Shown here one piece after another: positions 910-9,598 of a stretch of DNA of 36,831 bases. The position numbers and the translations under genes are program-made. Below the pieces are notes generated by a model that saw only the letters and a program-made list of their open reading frames with translations, had not been told where the DNA came from and did no database searches. Every line of letters starts with the position of its first letter. Within the stretch, counting starts at the first letter, position 1. The stretch is from Comamonadaceae bacterium (lineage in GTDB: Bacteria > Pseudomonadota > Gammaproteobacteria > Burkholderiales > Burkholderiaceae_C), in assembly GCA_023259355.1 (NCBI GenBank), contig JAHFQI010000014.1, positions 1 to 36,831 on the forward strand, read 5' to 3'.

Positions 910-2031
910 TCAGCTGATCGAACCCATCACGCCTTCGACGAGGTAGTTCATCTTTTCCAGCTCGAGGTCGGTCTGCTTGAACGACTTGCCCGCCGCGATG
1001 ACGGTGGCGCCCTTGTTGTCCTTGAGCGGCCCCTTGAAGATGTCGAACTTGCCGGCCATCATCTGCGCCTTGGTGCCGTCGGCCGACTTCTTCGCCGCGT
1101 CGGTCACCGCCGGGCCGTAGGCCGACATCTTGACGAAGCCGTCCTTCAGGCCGCCGCGCACGAAATTGGGATGCGGCTTGCCGCGGCGCGCGGCGTCGAT
1201 GAAGGTGGTGTAGGCGGTCAGCCAGTTCCACTCGGCGCCGGTCAGGTAAGCCTGGGGCGCGAGCTTGGCCTGGCTGGCGTGGTAGCCGCAGACCATCTTG
1301 CCGCGCTTGGCGGCGGTCTCGACGATGACCTTGGGGCCATCCACGTGCATGGTGAACACGTCCACACCCTGGTCGGCCAGGCTGTTGGTGGCCTCGGCTT
1401 CCTTGACCGGCATGGACCAGTCACCCGTGAAGATCACGCTGGTGGTGATGGCGGGCTTGACCGAGCGCGCGCCCATGGTGAAGGCGTTGATGTTGCGCAG
1501 CACCTGCGGGATCGGCTTGGCCGCGATGAAGCCGAGCTTGCCGCTCTTGCTCATGTGGGCGGCGATCACGCCGTTGAGGTACTGGCACTCGTCGATGTAG
1601 CCGAAGAAGCTGGCGGTGTTCTTGGGGTGCTTGCCTTCGGTCCACATGCCGCCGCAATGCGCGAAACGCGCGTCGGGGAACTTGGCGGCCACGGCCAGCA
1701 TGTGCGGATCGAAGTAGCCGAACGAGGTCGGAAACACCAGCGACGCGCCGTCCTGCGCGATCATGCCGGTCATGGTCTTCTGCACGGCGGCGGTCTCGGG
1801 CACGTTTTCTTCCTCGACCACTTTCACGCCCGGCATCTTCTTGAGCATCGCGGCGGCCTCGGCCTGGGCCTGGTTGTAGCCGTAGTCGTCGCGCGGGCCG
1901 ACGTAGATCACGCCGACCGTGATCGGCTTCTGGGCCAGCGCCAGTTCGCTGAATCCGCCCAGCGCGCCCGCGGCGCCAACGGCGGCAAGTGTCTTGAGTG
2001 AGTCGCGACGATTGAAGTTCTTGACGGTCAT
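910..2031 (-). CDS. BMP family ABC transporter substrate-binding protein
   Basis: 373 aa, RR-containing N-terminal signal (NFNRRDSLKTLAAVGAAGALGG); Med/BMP-like features VGVIYVGPRDDYGYNQAQAEAA, NVPETAAVQKTMTGMIAQDGASLVFPTSFGYF. Confidence 0.92.
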   Translation of the reverse strand: MTVKNFNRRDSLKTLAAVGAAGALGGFSELALAQKPITVGVIYVGPRDDYGYNQAQAEAAAMLKKMPGVKVVEEENVPETAAVQKTMTGMIAQDGASLVFPTSFGYFDPHMLAVAAKFPDARFAHCGGMWTEGKHPKNTASFFGYIDECQYLNGVIAAHMSKSGKLGFIAAKPIPQVLRNINAFTMGARSVKPAITTSVIFTGDWSMPVKEAEATNSLADQGVDVFTMHVDGPKVIVETAAKRGKMVCGYHASQAKLAPQAYLTGAEWNWLTAYTTFIDAARRGKPHPNFVRGGLKDGFVKMSAYGPAVTDAAKKSADGTKAQMMAGKFDIFKGPLKDNKGATVIAAGKSFKQTDLELEKMNYLVEGVMGSIS

Positions 2032-2095: not shown

Positions 2096-2107
2096 CTTGG
2101 ATACAAG
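2096..2107. promoter_or_regulatory. Candidate operator CTTGGATACAAG (near-palindrome), copy 1
   Basis: Exact reverse complement of the 12-mer at 8602-8613; both lie 7 bp after the TTGC of a sigma54-like element. Confidence 0.6.
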
Positions 2108-2113
2108 ACAGTG

Positions 2114-2129
2114 CGCAATATGTGTGCCA
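2114..2129 (-). promoter_or_regulatory. Predicted sigma54 (-24/-12) promoter TGGCAC-ACATA-TTGCG for the BMP transporter operon
   Basis: Matches TGGCAC-N5-TTGC exactly on the minus strand; predicted +1 near 2103, leader about 72 nt to the ATG at 2031. Confidence 0.75.
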
Positions 2130-2144: not shown

Positions 2145-2519
2145 TCAGGCCAGCAGGCTCACATGGGCGGCCACCACGCGCCAGCCCTCGGGCATGCGCA
2201 CCCAGGTCTGGCTCTGGCGCCCGGTGCTGGTGCTGCCGGTGCGCTGGAATTCGACGTTGGCGGTGGCCGTGTCACGCCCATAGGTGGTGATGACGGTCTT
2301 CAAAATGGTGCGCGCCAGCCCCTGGGCGGGGCGTGCCGCGCGGAAGTCGCGGATGGCGTCGAAGCCATAAAGGTTTTCAGTGGCGCCGTAGCGCAGGGTG
2401 TGCGGGCTGTTCCAGAACAGCTCGTCCAGCACCGCGACGTCGTTGGACACCAGGGCCTGTTCATAACGCTCGAACTGCGCGGTGACTTCGGCCAGCACCT
2501 CGGGCAGGTTGATTTCCAT
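2145..2519 (-). CDS. AtzH-like / HpxZ-like small protein (DUF3225-type, NTF2-like fold family)
   Basis: 124 aa [64 protein letters not shown]...; next to the AtzE-like amidase as in atz/hpx clusters. Confidence 0.85.
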
Positions 2520-2520
2520 G

Positions 2521-3906
2521 TCAGAGCTCCACGGGTTTGACGCCGGCGACGCCGGACTGCTGCAGGACCCAGGCGACGCGCAAGGCCAGGTCCTCGCGCC
2601 AGGGCGCGGCGATCACCTGCACGCCGATCGGCAGGCCGCCGGTTCCCGCGGGCCACATCGGCGCGGCCACCACGGGGCAGCCCATGAATGACACCGGCTG
2701 GGTCAGCAAGCCCAGCGACGGCCGGCAGGGCTGGCAGCTGCCGTTGATGTCGATCCACTCCGTGCCGATGGCGGGCGCGGCCACAGGCGTGGCGGGCGCC
2801 AGCAGGATGTCCCAGTGCTGGAACAGGGCATTGATGCGGTCGCGGTAAACGCGCCGGAACCGCTGCGCCCGCACGTACCACGCAGCGGGTTGCAGCGCGC
2901 CCGCGATGAAGCGGTCCACCGACAGGGGTTCGAATTCGTCCGCGCGGGTCCGCAAATCCGCCAGGTGCAGGCTGCCGCCTTCGCTGGCCGTGATGATGAA
3001 CGCGGCGGCCCGGCCCAGCGCGGCGTCGGGCCAGCTCACTTCGGCGCGGGCCCCGAGGGTGCTCGCCGCCAGCGCCACGGCCTCGCGCGCGGGCGGCGTC
3101 GCGTGGTCGTGGAAATAGCCGTCCAGCACACCCACGCGCAAGCCGGCCAGGCCGAGTTGCAGGTCGGCCGCCACGGGCTGCAGCGCCGTGGCATGGCAGC
3201 CGGGGTCGAGCGCGTCCGGTCCCTGCAGGGCGTCGTAGCTCCAGGCCAGGCCTTCGACGCAGTCGGACAGCGGGCCGAGGTGGTCGATGCTGTGGACGAA
3301 CGGCTCGCTGCCGCGCCGCGACAAGCGGCCGAACGTGGGTTTCAGGCCCCAGACCCCGCACAGCGAGGCGGGCACGCGGATCGAGCCATTGGTGTCGGAG
3401 CCGAGCGCGAGGCCCACCTGCCCCGCCGCCACCGCCGCCCCGCTGCCGCCGGAGGAGCCGCCGGCGCTGCGGCCAAGGTCGTGCGGGTTGTGGCAGGGGC
3501 CGTCATGGCTGTTTTCGGTGGTGAAGCCGTAGGCGTATTCGTCCATGTTCAGCGCGCCCACCAGCACCGCGCCGGCCGCCGCCAGGCGCTGCACCAGCAC
3601 GGCGTCGCGCGCCGCGGGTGCATGGCCGCGGTTGATGCGCGAGCCCGCGCGCGTGACGACGCCCTCGATGTCGAACAGGTTCTTCACCGCGTAGGGCACG
3701 CCGGCCAGTGGCGACAACGCCTCGCCGGCGGCGCGGCGGGCATCCACCGCGGCGGCCTCGGCGCGGGCGCGCGCCAGTGTGCGGTCGGTGAAGGCGTTGA
3801 CGCGGGCATCGGTGGCCTCGATGCGCGCCAGGCTGTGGTCCAGCAACTCGCGGGCGCTGAGTTCCTTTGTCGCCAGCGCACGGGACAGGTCCGCAAGCTG
3901 CTTCAT
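2521..3906 (-). CDS. atzE: AtzE family amidohydrolase (amidase signature enzyme; 1-carboxybiuret hydrolase / HpxY type)
   Basis: Amidase signature [47 protein letters not shown]; start [26 protein letters not shown] at 3906; downstream of an AtzG-like ORF with a 4-nt overlap. Confidence 0.88.
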
Positions 3907-4130
3907 GACGACGCGCCCCCGTCGGCGGTGCCCGGGAAGGGGGCCGGACGGTAGATTTCCGCCGGTTCGTCCTCGGGCCGCAGCGGCACGCCGTCCAGCA
4001 AGGCCGCCAGCGCGGCCGTGCGCGCCAGATGCTGCGCCACCCGCTGCGCGCGCGCCGCCTCCAGCGGCAGCGCCAGCAGGGCGGCGCTGGCTTCCACGTA
4101 GGCCAGAAGGTCCGCGTCGGTCGGGCTCAT
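3903..4130 (-). CDS. atzG: AtzG-like / HpxX-like small subunit (DUF4089-type)
   Basis: 75 aa MSPTDADLLAYVEASAALLALPLEAARAQRVAQHLARTAALAALLDGVPLRPEDEPAEIYRP; 4-nt overlaps with the genes on both sides. Confidence 0.82.
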   Translation of the reverse strand: MSPTDADLLAYVEASAALLALPLEAARAQRVAQHLARTAALAALLDGVPLRPEDEPAEIYRPAPFPGTADGGASS

Positions 4131-4948
4131 CGGCGGACCTCGCGTTGAAAAATCTCCAGGCTGCGTTTCTTGGCCTGGATGAAGCCGGGCTCGGAGAGCG
4201 TCTCCACCGTGCGCGGACGGGCGTCGGCATACGGCAGGATCTCGGCCACGCGGGTGGGGCGCTTGGTCAGCAGCAGGACCTGGTCAGCGAGGTACACCGC
4301 TTCTTCGAGGTCGTGCGACACCAGCAGCATGGTGGTGCCGGTCTGCATGAACACCTCCTGCAGCTTTTCGCGGATGAACAGCGTCATCTCAAAATCCAGC
4401 GCCGAGAACGGCTCGTCCAGGAACAGCACCTCGGGCTTGGGCGCGAGCGCCCGCATGATCGACGCCGTCTGCTGCTGGCCGCCCGAGAGTTCGTAGGGGT
4501 AGCGATTGAGGTCGAACCTCACGTCGAAGGAGGCCACGAGTTCGGCCATGCGGCGGTCCACCTCGGCCTTGGACCGGCCCGCCAGCTTGAGCGGGTAGGC
4601 GATGTTGTCGATGGTGCGCATCCAGGGAAACAGCGCGTCGCGGTAGTTCTGGAAGACGTAGCCGATCCGCGTGTCTTTCAGCGACTTGCCGTCGAACAGG
4701 ATCTCACCCGCGTCGATCGGCACCAAGCCCGCGATCATGTTGATCAGCGTGGACTTGCCGCAGCCGTTGGGTCCGAACACCGAGACGATCTTGTGTTTGG
4801 GGATGTCGAGGTTGAAGTCCTCGTACAGCGGCCAGCCGGCGAAATGCTTGGTCAGGCCGCGCACGGTGATATGGGTGCCGGCCGGGCCGGGCTGGAAGGC
4901 CGGCACGGGCACGTCGGCCACGACAGGGGCGTTCAACACCGCGCTCAT
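4127..4948 (-). CDS. ABC transporter ATP-binding protein (nitrate/sulfonate/taurine-type)
   Basis: Walker A GPNGCGKST, signature LSGGQQQ, Walker B VLFLDEPFSALD; start MSAVLNAPVVADVPVPAFQ at 4948. Confidence 0.93.
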   Translation of the reverse strand: MSAVLNAPVVADVPVPAFQPGPAGTHITVRGLTKHFAGWPLYEDFNLDIPKHKIVSVFGPNGCGKSTLINMIAGLVPIDAGEILFDGKSLKDTRIGYVFQNYRDALFPWMRTIDNIAYPLKLAGRSKAEVDRRMAELVASFDVRFDLNRYPYELSGGQQQTASIMRALAPKPEVLFLDEPFSALDFEMTLFIREKLQEVFMQTGTTMLLVSHDLEEAVYLADQVLLLTKRPTRVAEILPYADARPRTVETLSEPGFIQAKKRSLEIFQREVRR

Positions 4949-5787
4949 CGTCCGCTCCAGTGGACGATGCGGCGTTCGACCATCAAGAAGAGAATGTTCA
5001 GGGCGTAGCCGAGCGCCCCGGCGGCCAGGATGGACGCGTACATGTCGCGCACGTTCATGACCTGCTGCGAGTTGATGATGCGGTTGCCCAGCCCGCTGTC
5101 GGCGCCGATGAACATCTCCGCGACGATCACGATGACCAGCGCCATCGAGACGGCCGAGCGCAGCCCGACGAAGCTCGGCTGCAGGCTCTCCCAGACCAGT
5201 ACGTCCTTGAACACCTGCCAGCGCGAGGCGCCCATGACGCGCGCCGCCATCACGCGCTGCTTGCGTGCGTTGATCACGCCGTAGGCGCTGTTGAACACCA
5301 CGATGAGCAGGGCGCCGAAGGCGGCGATGGCCACCTTGTTGACATCGGAGACGCCGAAGATCATCAGGAACAGCGGGATCAGGGCCGACGAAGGCGTGGA
5401 GCGGAAGAAGTCGATCAGGAACTCCACGCTGCGGTAGGCTTTTTCGTTGCTGCCCAGCAGCACGCCCAGTGGCATGCCGACGGCGGCCGCGATCAGGAAG
5501 GCCTGGACCGTTCGCCACACCGTGACCATGAAGTCCCCGAGCAGGGGGCCGCCCGCCAGGCCGCTGGCCAGCGCGCCAAGCGCATCGGCCGGCGCGGGCA
5601 GCAGGATGGCCTTGATGAAACCCAGGCGCACGACCAGATCCCAGACGATAAAGAGCGCGAGCGGCCCGATGAAGGGCAAGGCCTTGCCCCATGCCGCCGG
5701 GCGCGGCGCAGCGGCCGGCGCGGCGGCGGCCGGCGGCGCCCAGGGCTGGACCGGCGCCGTCAGGATGGAAGGTGTCGGGTCCGCCAT
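4945..5787 (-). CDS. ABC transporter permease (SsuC/TauC-type)
   Basis: MADPTPSILTAPVQPWAPP...; EAA-like loop AARVMGASRWQVFKDVLVWESLQPSFVGLR; 4-nt overlap with the ATPase gene. Confidence 0.92.
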   Translation of the reverse strand: MADPTPSILTAPVQPWAPPAAAAPAAAPRPAAWGKALPFIGPLALFIVWDLVVRLGFIKAILLPAPADALGALASGLAGGPLLGDFMVTVWRTVQAFLIAAAVGMPLGVLLGSNEKAYRSVEFLIDFFRSTPSSALIPLFLMIFGVSDVNKVAIAAFGALLIVVFNSAYGVINARKQRVMAARVMGASRWQVFKDVLVWESLQPSFVGLRSAVSMALVIVIVAEMFIGADSGLGNRIINSQQVMNVRDMYASILAAGALGYALNILFLMVERRIVHWSGR

Positions 5788-5789
5788 GC

Positions 5790-6809
5790 TCAACCCTTGT
5801 AGAGCATGGAATCGACCATGAGCCGCGACGCGAAGATGCCCTTCTCGGCGAACAGGTCGAAGAACTTCTGGAAGTGCGCCACGTCGGCCGGCGTGAATTC
5901 GTTGTACAGGGTGTACGCGGCCAGCGGCACCTCGCCGGTCAACGCGCCTTCGATGGCGGTGTAGCCCTTGAGGTACTGGCGCGCTTCGGCGGGCTTGGCA
6001 CGCACGTAGCTCACGCCCTTGCCATAGGCGGTGATGAATTTTTTCGCTTCGCCGGGGTACTTCTTGATGAAGGCCGCGGTGAGGGAGGCCGAGCCGCCAA
6101 ACCACGGCGCCAGCGGATCGCCAAGCACGTATTTCGCGATCACGCCGGCTTCCAGCACCCGGGTGGTACCGTTCAGGCGCCCGATCGTGCCGGTCGGCTC
6201 CAGGGTGTAGCAGCCGTCGAGCTGGCCTGCGGCCAGCGCCGCCACGTGCTGGCCGATAGGCAGCTCCACCACCGTGGCACCGGTGGCGCCGCCGCGCTCC
6301 AGCACGGTCTTGGCCAGCGTCACGTTCTGGATGCCCGGGCCGGAGCCGACGCGCTTGCCCTTGAGGTCGGCCATGGTCTTGGCGCTGCTGCCGACCGGCA
6401 CGATGACCTCGTCCAGCACGTTCTTCACGTTGCTCGGGTTCGAGCAGAAGATCTTGAACGAGCCGGGTGCGGCGATTTCGCCGACGGCGATGTTGGCCGA
6501 GCCGGTGCCGTTGGCGCTGCCGTCGCAGCGGTCGGACAACATGCCTTCCATGATCTGCTGGGCGCCGGCGAACTTGAGCGCTTCCACGTTCAGGCCAGCT
6601 TCCTTGAAGTAGCCCAGCTCCACCGCCGCGTAGAACGGCAGGCCGGCGGCGATGGGCCAGTAGCCGATGCGGATCTTCGGGCCGGTTTGCGCGCGCAACA
6701 GGGCCGGTGAACCGAGCAGGCCCAGGCCGCCCAGCGCGGCGCCGGTCTGGATCAGTTGCCGGCGCGTGGGGGCCGGCGTTGCCGGCGTCAGGGATTCAGG
6801 TGCGGTCAT
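5790..6809 (-). CDS. ABC transporter substrate-binding protein (NMT1/SsuA-like)
   Basis: 339 aa; KIRIGYWPIAAGLPFYAAVELGYFKEAGLNVEALKFAGAQQIMEGML; N-terminal signal-like segment RRQLIQTGAALGGLGLLGSPALLRAQ. Confidence 0.92.
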   Translation of the reverse strand: MTAPESLTPATPAPTRRQLIQTGAALGGLGLLGSPALLRAQTGPKIRIGYWPIAAGLPFYAAVELGYFKEAGLNVEALKFAGAQQIMEGMLSDRCDGSANGTGSANIAVGEIAAPGSFKIFCSNPSNVKNVLDEVIVPVGSSAKTMADLKGKRVGSGPGIQNVTLAKTVLERGGATGATVVELPIGQHVAALAAGQLDGCYTLEPTGTIGRLNGTTRVLEAGVIAKYVLGDPLAPWFGGSASLTAAFIKKYPGEAKKFITAYGKGVSYVRAKPAEARQYLKGYTAIEGALTGEVPLAAYTLYNEFTPADVAHFQKFFDLFAEKGIFASRLMVDSMLYKG

Positions 6810-6855: not shown

Positions 6856-8586
6856 TCAGGCCGCGCCGGCCTTGAGCGCGGCGATGTAGGCACGCCAGCC
6901 GCCGTAATCAGAAATGTCCGTGGCACCTTGCAGCGCCTGCGCTTCGCACAGGAAGCCCTGCACGCTGCTGCCGTCGGCCAGTTCCAGCGTGCCGATGCCC
7001 AGCGGCGCCGGGATCATCGCGACGAACGAACCGTAGTGCTCGACCGGCATGTCCCAGACTTCCAGCGCGATGGCGGCGCCCTGGCCCGGTGCGACGCGCA
7101 GCAGGCCGGGTTTGGGCGGCACCGTGCCTGGCAGGGCAAAGAAGCGGTAGTCCGGCGCCGTCCGGGCCTCGCGCACCAGCGTGGCGCCGCGCTCGGTCAG
7201 CTGGCTGTTCAGCGGCATGCCCGACAAGTGGGCGCCGACCACCGCCACCTTCACCGTGGCGCCGGTGTGCAGGCCCCGGATCGGCTGGGGTTCCGGCAAG
7301 GGCTCGCCGGTGGCCCCCTGCGCCAGCCCCGTGGCATGGTGGTAGCGCTGGCCGAGTTCCGCGAGCTGCCAGTCGCTGCCGCAAGGGCCGACCAGGGTGA
7401 TGCCGAAGGGCAGGCCGTCCGGGCGCAGGCTGCTGGGCACCGAGATGGCCGCGTAGTCCAGCAGGTTGACGAAGTTGGTGTAGGCCCCCAGGTTGCGGTT
7501 GAGCGCCACCGGGTCCTCCTGCATCTGCGCGATGGTGTAGTGCGTCGGCGCCGTGGGCACCAGCAGCAGGTCCATCTTTTCCCACAGGGCCGCGGCCTGC
7601 TGGCCCAGCGCCCGCAGCCGGGTTTGCGCGTCGTACAGGTCGGCGGCGCTGTAGCCGCGTCCGGCGGCGATGATGCTGCGAACCGGCTCCATGACGTCGC
7701 GCTCGTGGGCGTCGAAGAAGGGGCGGATGGCGGCGTAGCGCTCGGCCACCAGGGCGCTGTCGTACAGCATCGCGGCGGCCTGCGCCAGCGGGCCATAGTC
7801 GATTTCCACGGCGGTGCCACCCAGGGCCTCCAGCCGGGCAACGGCCTGCGCGAACGCCGTCTCGGCCAGCGCATCCCCGAAGAACGAGAGCGGGCGTGGA
7901 ATGCCAAAACGGAAGTTCCGCGCGAGCGGCCGGGCGGCCAGCGGCAGGGCACGGGAGTACGGGTCCTGCGCGTCGTGGCCCAGCGCCGCCTCCAGCACCT
8001 TGACGGCCATGGCGACGCTGCGCGCGAAGATGGAGACGCAGTCCACGCTCTGGGCGGCGGGCACCACCCCACGGGCGCTGATCAGCCCTTTCGAGGGCTT
8101 GAGGCCCACGATGTTGTTCAGGCCGGCGGGTACGCGGCCCGAGCCGGCCGTGTCGGTGCCCAGCGCGAAGTCCACCTGCCCGGTGGCCACGACGTAGGCC
8201 GAGCCGGAGCTGGAACCGCCCGAGACATAGGCCGGGTTGAAGGCGTTGGGCACGGCGCCATACGGCGAACGCGTGCCGTTGAGCCCGCAGGCGAACTGGT
8301 CCAGGTTGGTCTTGCCGAGCAGGGATGCACCGGCATCGAGCAGGCGCCGCACCACAACGGCGTGGTCCGTGGGCAGGTAGGCAAAGGCGGGGCAGGCGGC
8401 CGTGGTGGGCAGCCCGGCGACGTCGATGTTGTCCTTGACGGCAAAGCGCAAGCCGTCCAGACAGCCCGGCTTCTCCAGTGAGATCGGCTGGGGCGGCCGT
8501 GCGAGCCAGGCAGGCTCCGCGGTGTCGTCGCGCGGCGCCACGGGCGCCGGGTTGACCAAGGATTCAGAAGCGAGGGGTTGCACCAC
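6856..8586 (-). CDS. atzF: Allophanate hydrolase (AtzF type)
   Basis: Amidase domain (VSGGSSSGSAYVVATGQVDFALGTDTAGSGRVPAGLNNIVGLKPSKG) plus C-terminal allophanate-hydrolase domain. The ORF track starts at TTG 8619, but that lies upstream of the predicted sigma54 +1; GTG at 8586 or 8583 is preferred. Confidence 0.88.
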   Translation of the reverse strand: MVQPLASESLVNPAPVAPRDDTAEPAWLARPPQPISLEKPGCLDGLRFAVKDNIDVAGLPTTAACPAFAYLPTDHAVVVRRLLDAGASLLGKTNLDQFACGLNGTRSPYGAVPNAFNPAYVSGGSSSGSAYVVATGQVDFALGTDTAGSGRVPAGLNNIVGLKPSKGLISARGVVPAAQSVDCVSIFARSVAMAVKVLEAALGHDAQDPYSRALPLAARPLARNFRFGIPRPLSFFGDALAETAFAQAVARLEALGGTAVEIDYGPLAQAAAMLYDSALVAERYAAIRPFFDAHERDVMEPVRSIIAAGRGYSAADLYDAQTRLRALGQQAAALWEKMDLLLVPTAPTHYTIAQMQEDPVALNRNLGAYTNFVNLLDYAAISVPSSLRPDGLPFGITLVGPCGSDWQLAELGQRYHHATGLAQGATGEPLPEPQPIRGLHTGATVKVAVVGAHLSGMPLNSQLTERGATLVREARTAPDYRFFALPGTVPPKPGLLRVAPGQGAAIALEVWDMPVEHYGSFVAMIPAPLGIGTLELADGSSVQGFLCEAQALQGATDISDYGGWRAYIAALKAGAA

Positions 8587-8601
8587 TTTAAAGCATCCAA
8601 T

Positions 8602-8613
8602 CTTGTATCCAAG
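8602..8613. promoter_or_regulatory. Candidate operator CTTGTATCCAAG (near-palindrome), copy 2
   Basis: Exact reverse complement of 2096-2107; overlaps the predicted +1 of the atzF promoter. Resembles TTGTATACAA-type GntR/FCD operators with one mismatch. Confidence 0.6.
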
Positions 8614-8619
8614 TTGCAA

Positions 8620-8635
8620 TGCAAGTGACGTGCCA
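8620..8635 (-). promoter_or_regulatory. Predicted sigma54 promoter TGGCACG-TCAC-TTGCA for the atzF operon
   Basis: Exact match to TGGCACG-N4-TTGCA on the minus strand. Confidence 0.82.
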
Positions 8636-8719: not shown

Positions 8720-9598
8720 TCAGCCGGGGTTCTTCTTGACCGCGAGCGCCGCGTCGTAGAGCGTGTTGCGCGACGTCCCGGTGATCTCGGCCGCGAGCTT
8801 GACGGCGGTTTTGAGCGGCAGCTCGGCCAGCAGCAGTTTCAGCACGCGCAGATCCTCGCCCGCGTCGTCGGCCACCGGGGCCCCATGCACCACCACCACG
8901 AACTCGCCACGCAGGCGGTTCGCGTCGGCGGCCAGCCAGGCGGGCAAGTCCTTCGCGGGCACCGTGGCAATCTCTTCAAACTGCTTGGTCAGTTCGCGCC
9001 CCAGCGTCACCGGGCGTTCGCCTAGCACGGCCAGCGCGCCGGCCAGCGCCTCGATGCGGTGCGGCGCTTCGAGCAGCACCACGGCGCGCGGCTCGGCGGC
9101 CAGGGCCTGCACGGCGCGTTCGCGTTCGGCCGCCTTGGGCGGCAGGAAACCCGAGAACACGAAACCCCCTTCCTGCGTCATGCCCGCCGCGCAGAGCGCC
9201 GTGGTGACGCTGCTGGCACCGGGCAGCGGCACCACCGCCAGAGAGGCCGCGCGCACCGCGGCGACCAGGCGCGCACCGGGGTCGCTGATGGCGGGCGTGC
9301 CGGCGTCGCTCACATAGGCGATGCGCTGGCCCAGCTGCAGCCGTTCGATCACGGCCTGCGCGGCCTCGGCCTCGTTGTGCTGGTGCACCGCCAGCAGTTG
9401 CGCGCCGGGACGATCGATGCCGTAGGCGCGCAGCAGCTGCTGGGTGTGGCGCGTGTCCTCGCAGGCCACGGCGTCCACCAGGGCCAGCACATGCAGCGCG
9501 CGCAGCGTGATGTCGGCGAGGTTGCCGATCGGCGTGGCCACGACGTAGAGCGTGCCCTGCGGATAATGCTGGTGCGACGCAGCCTCGCGGGCCGCCAT
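8720..9598 (-). CDS. rsmI: 16S rRNA (cytidine(1402)-2'-O)-methyltransferase
   Basis: GTLYVVATPIGNLADITLRALHVLALVDAVACEDTRHTQQLL, YVSDAGTPAISDPGARLV, PLPGASSVTTALCAAG. Start uncertain: ATG at 9598 chosen; the ORF extends to 9685. Confidence 0.92.
   Translation of the reverse strand: MAAREAASHQHYPQGTLYVVATPIGNLADITLRALHVLALVDAVACEDTRHTQQLLRAYGIDRPGAQLLAVHQHNEAEAAQAVIERLQLGQRIAYVSDAGTPAISDPGARLVAAVRAASLAVVPLPGASSVTTALCAAGMTQEGGFVFSGFLPPKAAERERAVQALAAEPRAVVLLEAPHRIEALAGALAVLGERPVTLGRELTKQFEEIATVPAKDLPAWLAADANRLRGEFVVVVHGAPVADDAGEDLRVLKLLLAELPLKTAVKLAAEITGTSRNTLYDAALAVKKNPG

Follow-up and report, generated by a model that had tools for sequence, protein, structure and literature searches.

A predicted FCD-GntR operator on the start site of two sigma54-type promoters in an atzF cluster of the Comamonadaceae

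Introduction

Which signals would have to coincide before allophanate hydrolase is made from an atzF promoter that carries a sigma54 element and, across its predicted start site, a near-palindrome? This question is raised by the window analyzed here, a stretch of 36,831 nucleotides from a Comamonadaceae bacterium (assembly GCA_023259355.1, contig JAHFQI010000014.1). A first-pass annotation of the same stretch had proposed that RpoN-dependent activation under nitrogen limitation is gated by a repressor of the GntR/FCD kind sitting on the start site. Direct repression of sigma54 promoters is stated to be rare, because their dependence on an activator is thought to make repression unnecessary (PMC5263251).

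Results

The minus strand from 8635 to 8602 reads TGGCACGTCACTTGCA (8635..8620), TTGCAA (8619..8614) and CTTGGATACAAG (8613..8602), which bears out the exact 16-nt -24/-12 element that the first-pass annotation had placed upstream of atzF; within TGGCAC-N5-TTGC, GG and GC lie 10 nt apart. The 7-nt spacer given there between element and dyad holds if counted from TTGC, whereas the distance from the end of the 16-mer is 6 nt. Transcription from sigma54 promoters starts about 12 nt past the -12 GC, and from C8621 this rule leads to the same predicted place, near 8609 and within the near-palindrome, as had been indicated before. The distance of about 85 bp between the element and rsmI also agrees, the rsmI stop being located at 8720, and no NtrC box was found at up to 2 mismatches between 8636 and 8720, as the first-pass annotation had noted. 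Both rpoN and the enhancer-binding-protein gene ntrC are encoded in this genome. The mechanically called atzF reading frame opens at TTG 8619, a position inside the promoter, and the likely start codon is listed together with the other features in Table 1. Column conservation of the dyad, CTTGKATMCAAG, agrees with the consensus of the FadR subfamily, whose AT-rich palindromes are built of TKGT/ACMA-type boxes in which GT and AC stand 2-3 nt apart (PMC4494728); one dyad half is TTGG or CCAA, and not TTGT or ACAA, in many copies including that of the window.

Table 1. Location and basis of assignment of the features predicted in the window
Feature	Coordinates	Strand	Basis
BMP-type ABC permease, interrupted by contig end	1..887	-	sequence analysis; continuation read in relatives
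BMP/PnrA-like ABC substrate-binding protein, opens second transcription unit	910..2031	-	PF02608
Second operator CTTGTATCCAAG, 7 nt past TTGC as in first module	2096..2107	-	pattern scans
Sigma54 element of second promoter, TGGCACACATATTGC	2115..2129	-	pattern scans
atzH/hpxZ-like protein	2145..2519	-	PF11533 and NF033625
atzE-family amidohydrolase, 1-carboxybiuret hydrolase type	2521..3906	-	TIGR02715, 699 bits vs cut-off 426
atzG-like small subunit, 75 aa	3903..4130	-	PF13318, 43 bits vs 24
ABC ATPase, start approximate	4127..4950	-	profile matches
ABC permease, start approximate	4945..5800	-	profile matches
NMT1/SsuA-type ABC substrate-binding protein	5790..6809	-	profile matches
atzF, allophanate hydrolase	6856..8586	-	TIGR02713, 775 bits vs cut-off 511
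Conserved leader dyad TGCTTTAAAGTGGTGCA, +15..+31, overlaps start codon; candidate NtrC site	8579..8595	-	2 mismatches from TGCACN7GTGCA
Likely atzF start codon GTG	8584..8586	-	alignment; mostly ATG in relatives, operator distance constant
Operator dyad CTTGGATACAAG, -4..+8, predicted site of linked FCD-GntR regulator	8602..8613	-	sequence and conservation
Predicted +1	8609	-	sigma54 position rule, C of -12 GC = 8621
Sigma54 -24/-12 element of atzF promoter, TGGCACG-TCAC-TTGCA	8620..8635	-	TGGCA and TTGC invariant in 49/49 aligned orthologous promoters

A second module, TGGCACACATATTGC-GCACTGT-CTTGTATCCAAG, is located at 2129..2096 on the minus strand ahead of the BMP-transporter operon, with a spacing identical to that of the first. 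When the halves were scanned separately, each of the window's two exact 12-mers was found to sit in one of the two modules. According to a base-composition model about 7e-7 exact composites are expected in the whole 3.8-Mb genome, and two were found. Outside both modules the exact operator pattern occurs once more in this genome (C113, CTTGGATCCAAG), and three further places at 1 mismatch are similar in number to the yield of the reversed control pattern.

The contig stops inside the BMP operon, and its continuation was read from relatives, where the first permease is followed by a second permease, a formamidase-like protein, biuH, an ATPase, a trtA-like gene and an FCD-GntR regulator. BiuH of these relatives scores 424 bits against a cut-off of 370 (PDB 6xjm, 6azo), and the trtA-like product is closest to TrtA, as which PDB 6xix/6xj4 have been identified (PMC7948467). 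These enzymes therefore point to a regulon serving the catabolism of triuret, carboxybiuret, biuret and allophanate, probably for nitrogen. One relative also encodes the cyanuric acid amidohydrolase AtzD (525 bits versus 360), suggesting that chromosomal clusters of the atzF/BMP kind can complete cyanuric acid breakdown; its gene lies between atzH and the BMP operon (L056:9770-10909). As to gene calls in the window, the mechanical reading frames 2521-4230 (atzE) and 4127-5692 (ABC ATPase) are spuriously long at the N-terminal end by a wide margin, the true starts lying well inside.

Composites with at most 2 mismatches were present in 25 of 151 family genomes, nearly all of them preceding atzF or the BMP gene, while the reversed control pattern gave 0. 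The 2-mismatch composites of G099, G055 and G143 lie away from the atzF/BMP cluster and were treated as background, even though two of them stand ahead of another FCD gene. When the gap was left free between 0 and 30 nt in 401 family genomes, 34 of 43 exact matches had a gap of exactly 7, and reversed-pattern matches were 0; the binomial p of about 1e-42, like the other counts and p-values given here, overstates independence because the genomes are phylogenetically related, the matches spanning about 30 genera. Non-random spacing of the motif pair, which the first-pass annotation had set as a check, was thus observed. Orthologues of atzF number 55 in the 401 genomes; with identities of 68% or more they stand well apart from a group at 51-58%, and a perfect TGGCAY-N5-TTGC at gap 7 before the 12-bp dyad precedes 49 of them. 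Among the remaining ones the gap is 4 in two cases and 6 in one, and the module is absent in three (G085, G207, G336). In an alignment of the 49 orthologous promoters, conservation is limited to -26..+31. Ahead of the BMP gene the module was found in 23 of 40 upstream regions, 22 times with gap 7, and in several of the module-less regions atzH lies so close to the BMP gene that there is no room for a separate promoter.

A search profile built from the FCD proteins of the window's genome located FCD-GntR genes in the relatives that lie immediately after atzH or close the BMP operon. These linked regulators form one orthologue group (group A), about 50-85% identical, in which both the GntR and the FCD domain (PF00392 and PF07729) exceed their cut-offs. 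No NCBIfam equivalog reached its cut-off for the linked regulator; phnR_burk and other NCBIfam names were rejected, their scores being far under the cut-off. Group A proteins score at least 379 bits versus at most 357 for paralogues in the 401 genomes, one truncated copy of G042 below this score also being counted, and they occur in 55 of the 401. With the window's own genome set apart, the exact module was present in 32 of 55 genomes with the regulator versus 0 of 345 without it (p = 1e-32), and the presence of atzF coincides with that of the regulator (p = 7e-56; 401 genomes). Of the three orthologues without a module at atzF, those of G085 and G336 stand in genomes that lack a group A regulator; in G207 the regulator is present and an exact module precedes the BMP gene. 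An order-level profile search in a sample of 300 genomes recovered relatives of the regulator in many families, with scores of at least 379 bits only within the window's own family. Fixed spacing and regulator co-occurrence support, on sequence grounds, the earlier proposal that a GntR/FCD protein gates a sigma54 promoter at its start site.

That no GntR regulator is encoded in the window had been stated correctly by the first-pass annotation, probably because the contig ends within the transporter operon. The genome encodes 20 FCD proteins, none of them close to group A (no match at E <= 1e-50). Since the contig stops where it does and the assembly is 88% complete, the window's own group A gene presumably lies beyond the contig end. 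The first-pass annotation had overlooked the second promoter and the linked regulator, and likewise the biuret/triuret setting of the genes and the conserved element downstream. In the group A alignment (A1), an Asp and three His (D145, H149, H193 and H215 in first-row numbering) are kept at positions that we regard as similar to those of the FCD metal site; this would fit a carboxylated ligand. Two 2-mismatch composites (L010 and L020, modules at 1501; likewise the corresponding places in L044 and L053) directly precede another FCD-GntR gene, and in these genomes without group A they possibly represent a related autoregulated system or background.

Upstream NtrC boxes were not enriched, 18 (at most 2 mismatches) being found in about 27 kb where 25 were expected. 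A positive control in the window's genome is glnA, recognized by the N-terminus of its product, where TGCACCACCAGAGTGCA lies at a distance of 150 bp from a sigma54-like element. Downstream of the operator, 40 of 49 group A atzF leaders come within 2 mismatches of TGCAC-N7-GTGCA at +15..+31, where the dyad overlaps the start codon within ATGGTGCA. Non-coding BMP leaders carry GCAC at +24..+29 in 16 of 22 cases (shuffled mean 0.64, maximum 6); the window's own BMP leader has no clear GCAC copy. A further group of clusters, group B, is defined by AtzF proteins 51-58% identical and a paralogous FCD regulator (L184-L187, L238-L257); its promoters are alike in kind, and its operator variants are TTGTATACMA or TGGTATACCA. 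The gap between promoter and operator in group B is 6-17 nt where the two do not overlap; in G120 and G283 the operator and the -12 box share bases. Of 23 group B leaders, 20 have GCAC at 5 or 7 nt past the operator (shuffled mean 0.94, maximum 5), and 5 are 1 mismatch away from TGCAC-N7-GTGCA. By motif resemblance, NtrC is the natural candidate for this leader element.

Discussion

We consider it likely that both modules act as sigma54 promoters within a biuret/triuret/carboxybiuret regulon, repressed at +1 by the linked FCD-GntR protein and driven by NtrC in the manner of an AND gate. What can be read directly from the genomes is the promoter element with a dyad at fixed spacing, the conservation of this module and its linkage to the regulator. 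Regulator binding to the dyad, repression, the ligand and NtrC as activator we infer, the sign of regulation being deduced from the position of the operator. The chromosomal regulon would comprise uptake and breakdown of biuret/triuret/carboxybiuret-type compounds, encoded by atzF-ABC-atzGEH and by the BMP transporter-biuH-trtA genes. A dedicated FCD-GntR protein would occupy the CTTGKATMCAAG dyad at -4..+8 and, in its inducer-free state, block binding or opening by sigma54-RNA polymerase. It would be released by a compound of the pathway, for which the carboxylated intermediates allophanate, carboxybiuret and dicarboxyurea are possible candidates, after which phosphorylated NtrC would drive open-complex formation under nitrogen limitation. 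Block and drive would thus form the AND gate, and a GntR site on a sigma54 start site suggests that expression requires nitrogen shortage together with the appropriate substrate.

An activating or anti-repressing role of the FCD regulator at +1, exerted together with NtrC bound just downstream, seems unlikely to us. FCD proteins are able to activate, and a site centred near +3 may formally be compatible with roles beyond repression. In group B the distance between operator and GCAC is nearly constant (5 or 7 nt, 20/23) while the gap between promoter and operator varies, which suggests that the two proteins interact or compete. However, a dimer on -4..+8 would cover DNA that sigma54-RNA polymerase contacts and melts, and established regulators at such start-site positions are repressors. 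That promoter and dyad are real and the dyad is read by a different protein, the linked GntR acting elsewhere, is more improbable still: the window's genome offers 20 FCD proteins, none of them the linked orthologue, but all 32 exact-module genomes other than the window's possess a group A orthologue, the module is missing from the 345 genomes without the regulator, and the dyad has the geometry documented for FadR-subfamily sites (PMC4494728). Single elements of such length do arise by chance in large genomes; a chance neighbourhood of a good sigma54 match and a palindrome is nevertheless ruled out for practical purposes by the expectation of about 7e-7 composites per genome, the spacing test with its 0 reversed matches in 401 genomes, the 49 of 55 atzF upstream regions, the confinement of conservation to -26..+31 and the exact recurrence of the module across genera.

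For the leader, and compatible with repression at +1 by the linked regulator, +9..+31 might be a translation-initiation region that holds no protein site, a reading that we regard as possible and rather doubtful. The start codon falls within it at an unchanging distance, and GGAtG there weakly resembles a Shine-Dalgarno sequence. Against this, the second codon GTG of atzF is nearly fixed while later residues vary, atzF orthologues without the module do not have the ATGGTGCA start, and GCAC recurs far above shuffled expectation in the non-coding BMP leaders and in those of group B; the conservation is poorly explained by constraint on coding or translation alone. With somewhat less than even confidence, we propose that there is no upstream enhancer and that NtrC acts from the weak +15..+31 site beside the GntR operator, competing or cooperating with the regulator over the start. 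Such an arrangement, if true, would amount to a compact AND gate at sigma54 promoters, one that is conserved across two paralogous groups of regulators in the family.

On the reading that we prefer, in which the linked FCD-GntR protein is a repressor, a single regulator family appears to repress sigma54 promoters systematically, with fixed spacing, at two promoters of a cluster and in about 30 genera. A GntR site exactly at a sigma54 start is an arrangement rarely seen, and the defined 58-bp module could serve as a model for a repressor and an enhancer-binding protein sharing one sigma54 start site. For nitrogen catabolism of biuret, triuret and cyanuric acid, the linked FCD-GntR protein is, as judged from genome comparison, a candidate regulator together with its regulon, of relevance to slow-release fertilisers and s-triazine residues.

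The flagellar enhancer-binding proteins FleQ and FlrC act at sigma54 promoters from sites close to or downstream of +1, and the proposed leader site would resemble theirs in that an activator site lies in the leader and not in a distant upstream enhancer; it differs in that FleQ and FlrC are flagellar regulators, whereas the half-site described here is NtrC-like and adjoins a GntR-type operator. In enzymes and kind of cluster, the relatives of the window correspond to the TrtA-BiuH-AtzF triuret/biuret operons of Herbaspirillum and Rhizobium (PMC7948467), and they are of the same kind as the atzF-ABC-atzGEH arrangement reported, without a regulatory model, for Comamonadaceae and other Burkholderiales (PMC6219798). 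A gntR gene is drawn in biuH-bearing contigs (PMC12625717), and PMC7948467 refers to an M.Sc. thesis on biuret/triuret regulation; we found no description of the regulation of either kind of cluster in the open-access literature. FadR-subfamily sites in which 2 nt separate GT from AC are known for several orthologous groups including HpxS (PMC4494728), with which the present system shares the palindrome and an FCD-GntR regulator of a catabolic cluster, although here the site overlaps +1 of a sigma54 promoter and the regulator matches no NCBIfam equivalog at cut-off. The closest parallel in function is offered by PatzR, the sigmaN-dependent atzR promoter of Pseudomonas sp. ADP, which, according to PMC5263251 (citing Porrua et al., 2009), needs no upstream activation sequence for its activation by NtrC and is directly repressed by the LysR-type AtzR, acting on its own promoter. 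Both are promoters of s-triazine/cyanuric acid nitrogen catabolism with a regulator encoded in the cluster, and, in line with the missing activation sequence of PatzR, upstream NtrC boxes are not enriched at the promoters described here. In contrast to the LysR-type AtzR, a protein with GntR and FCD domains is linked to the dyads of the window, and these stand at catabolic and transport promoters and are accompanied by a conserved site downstream of +1.
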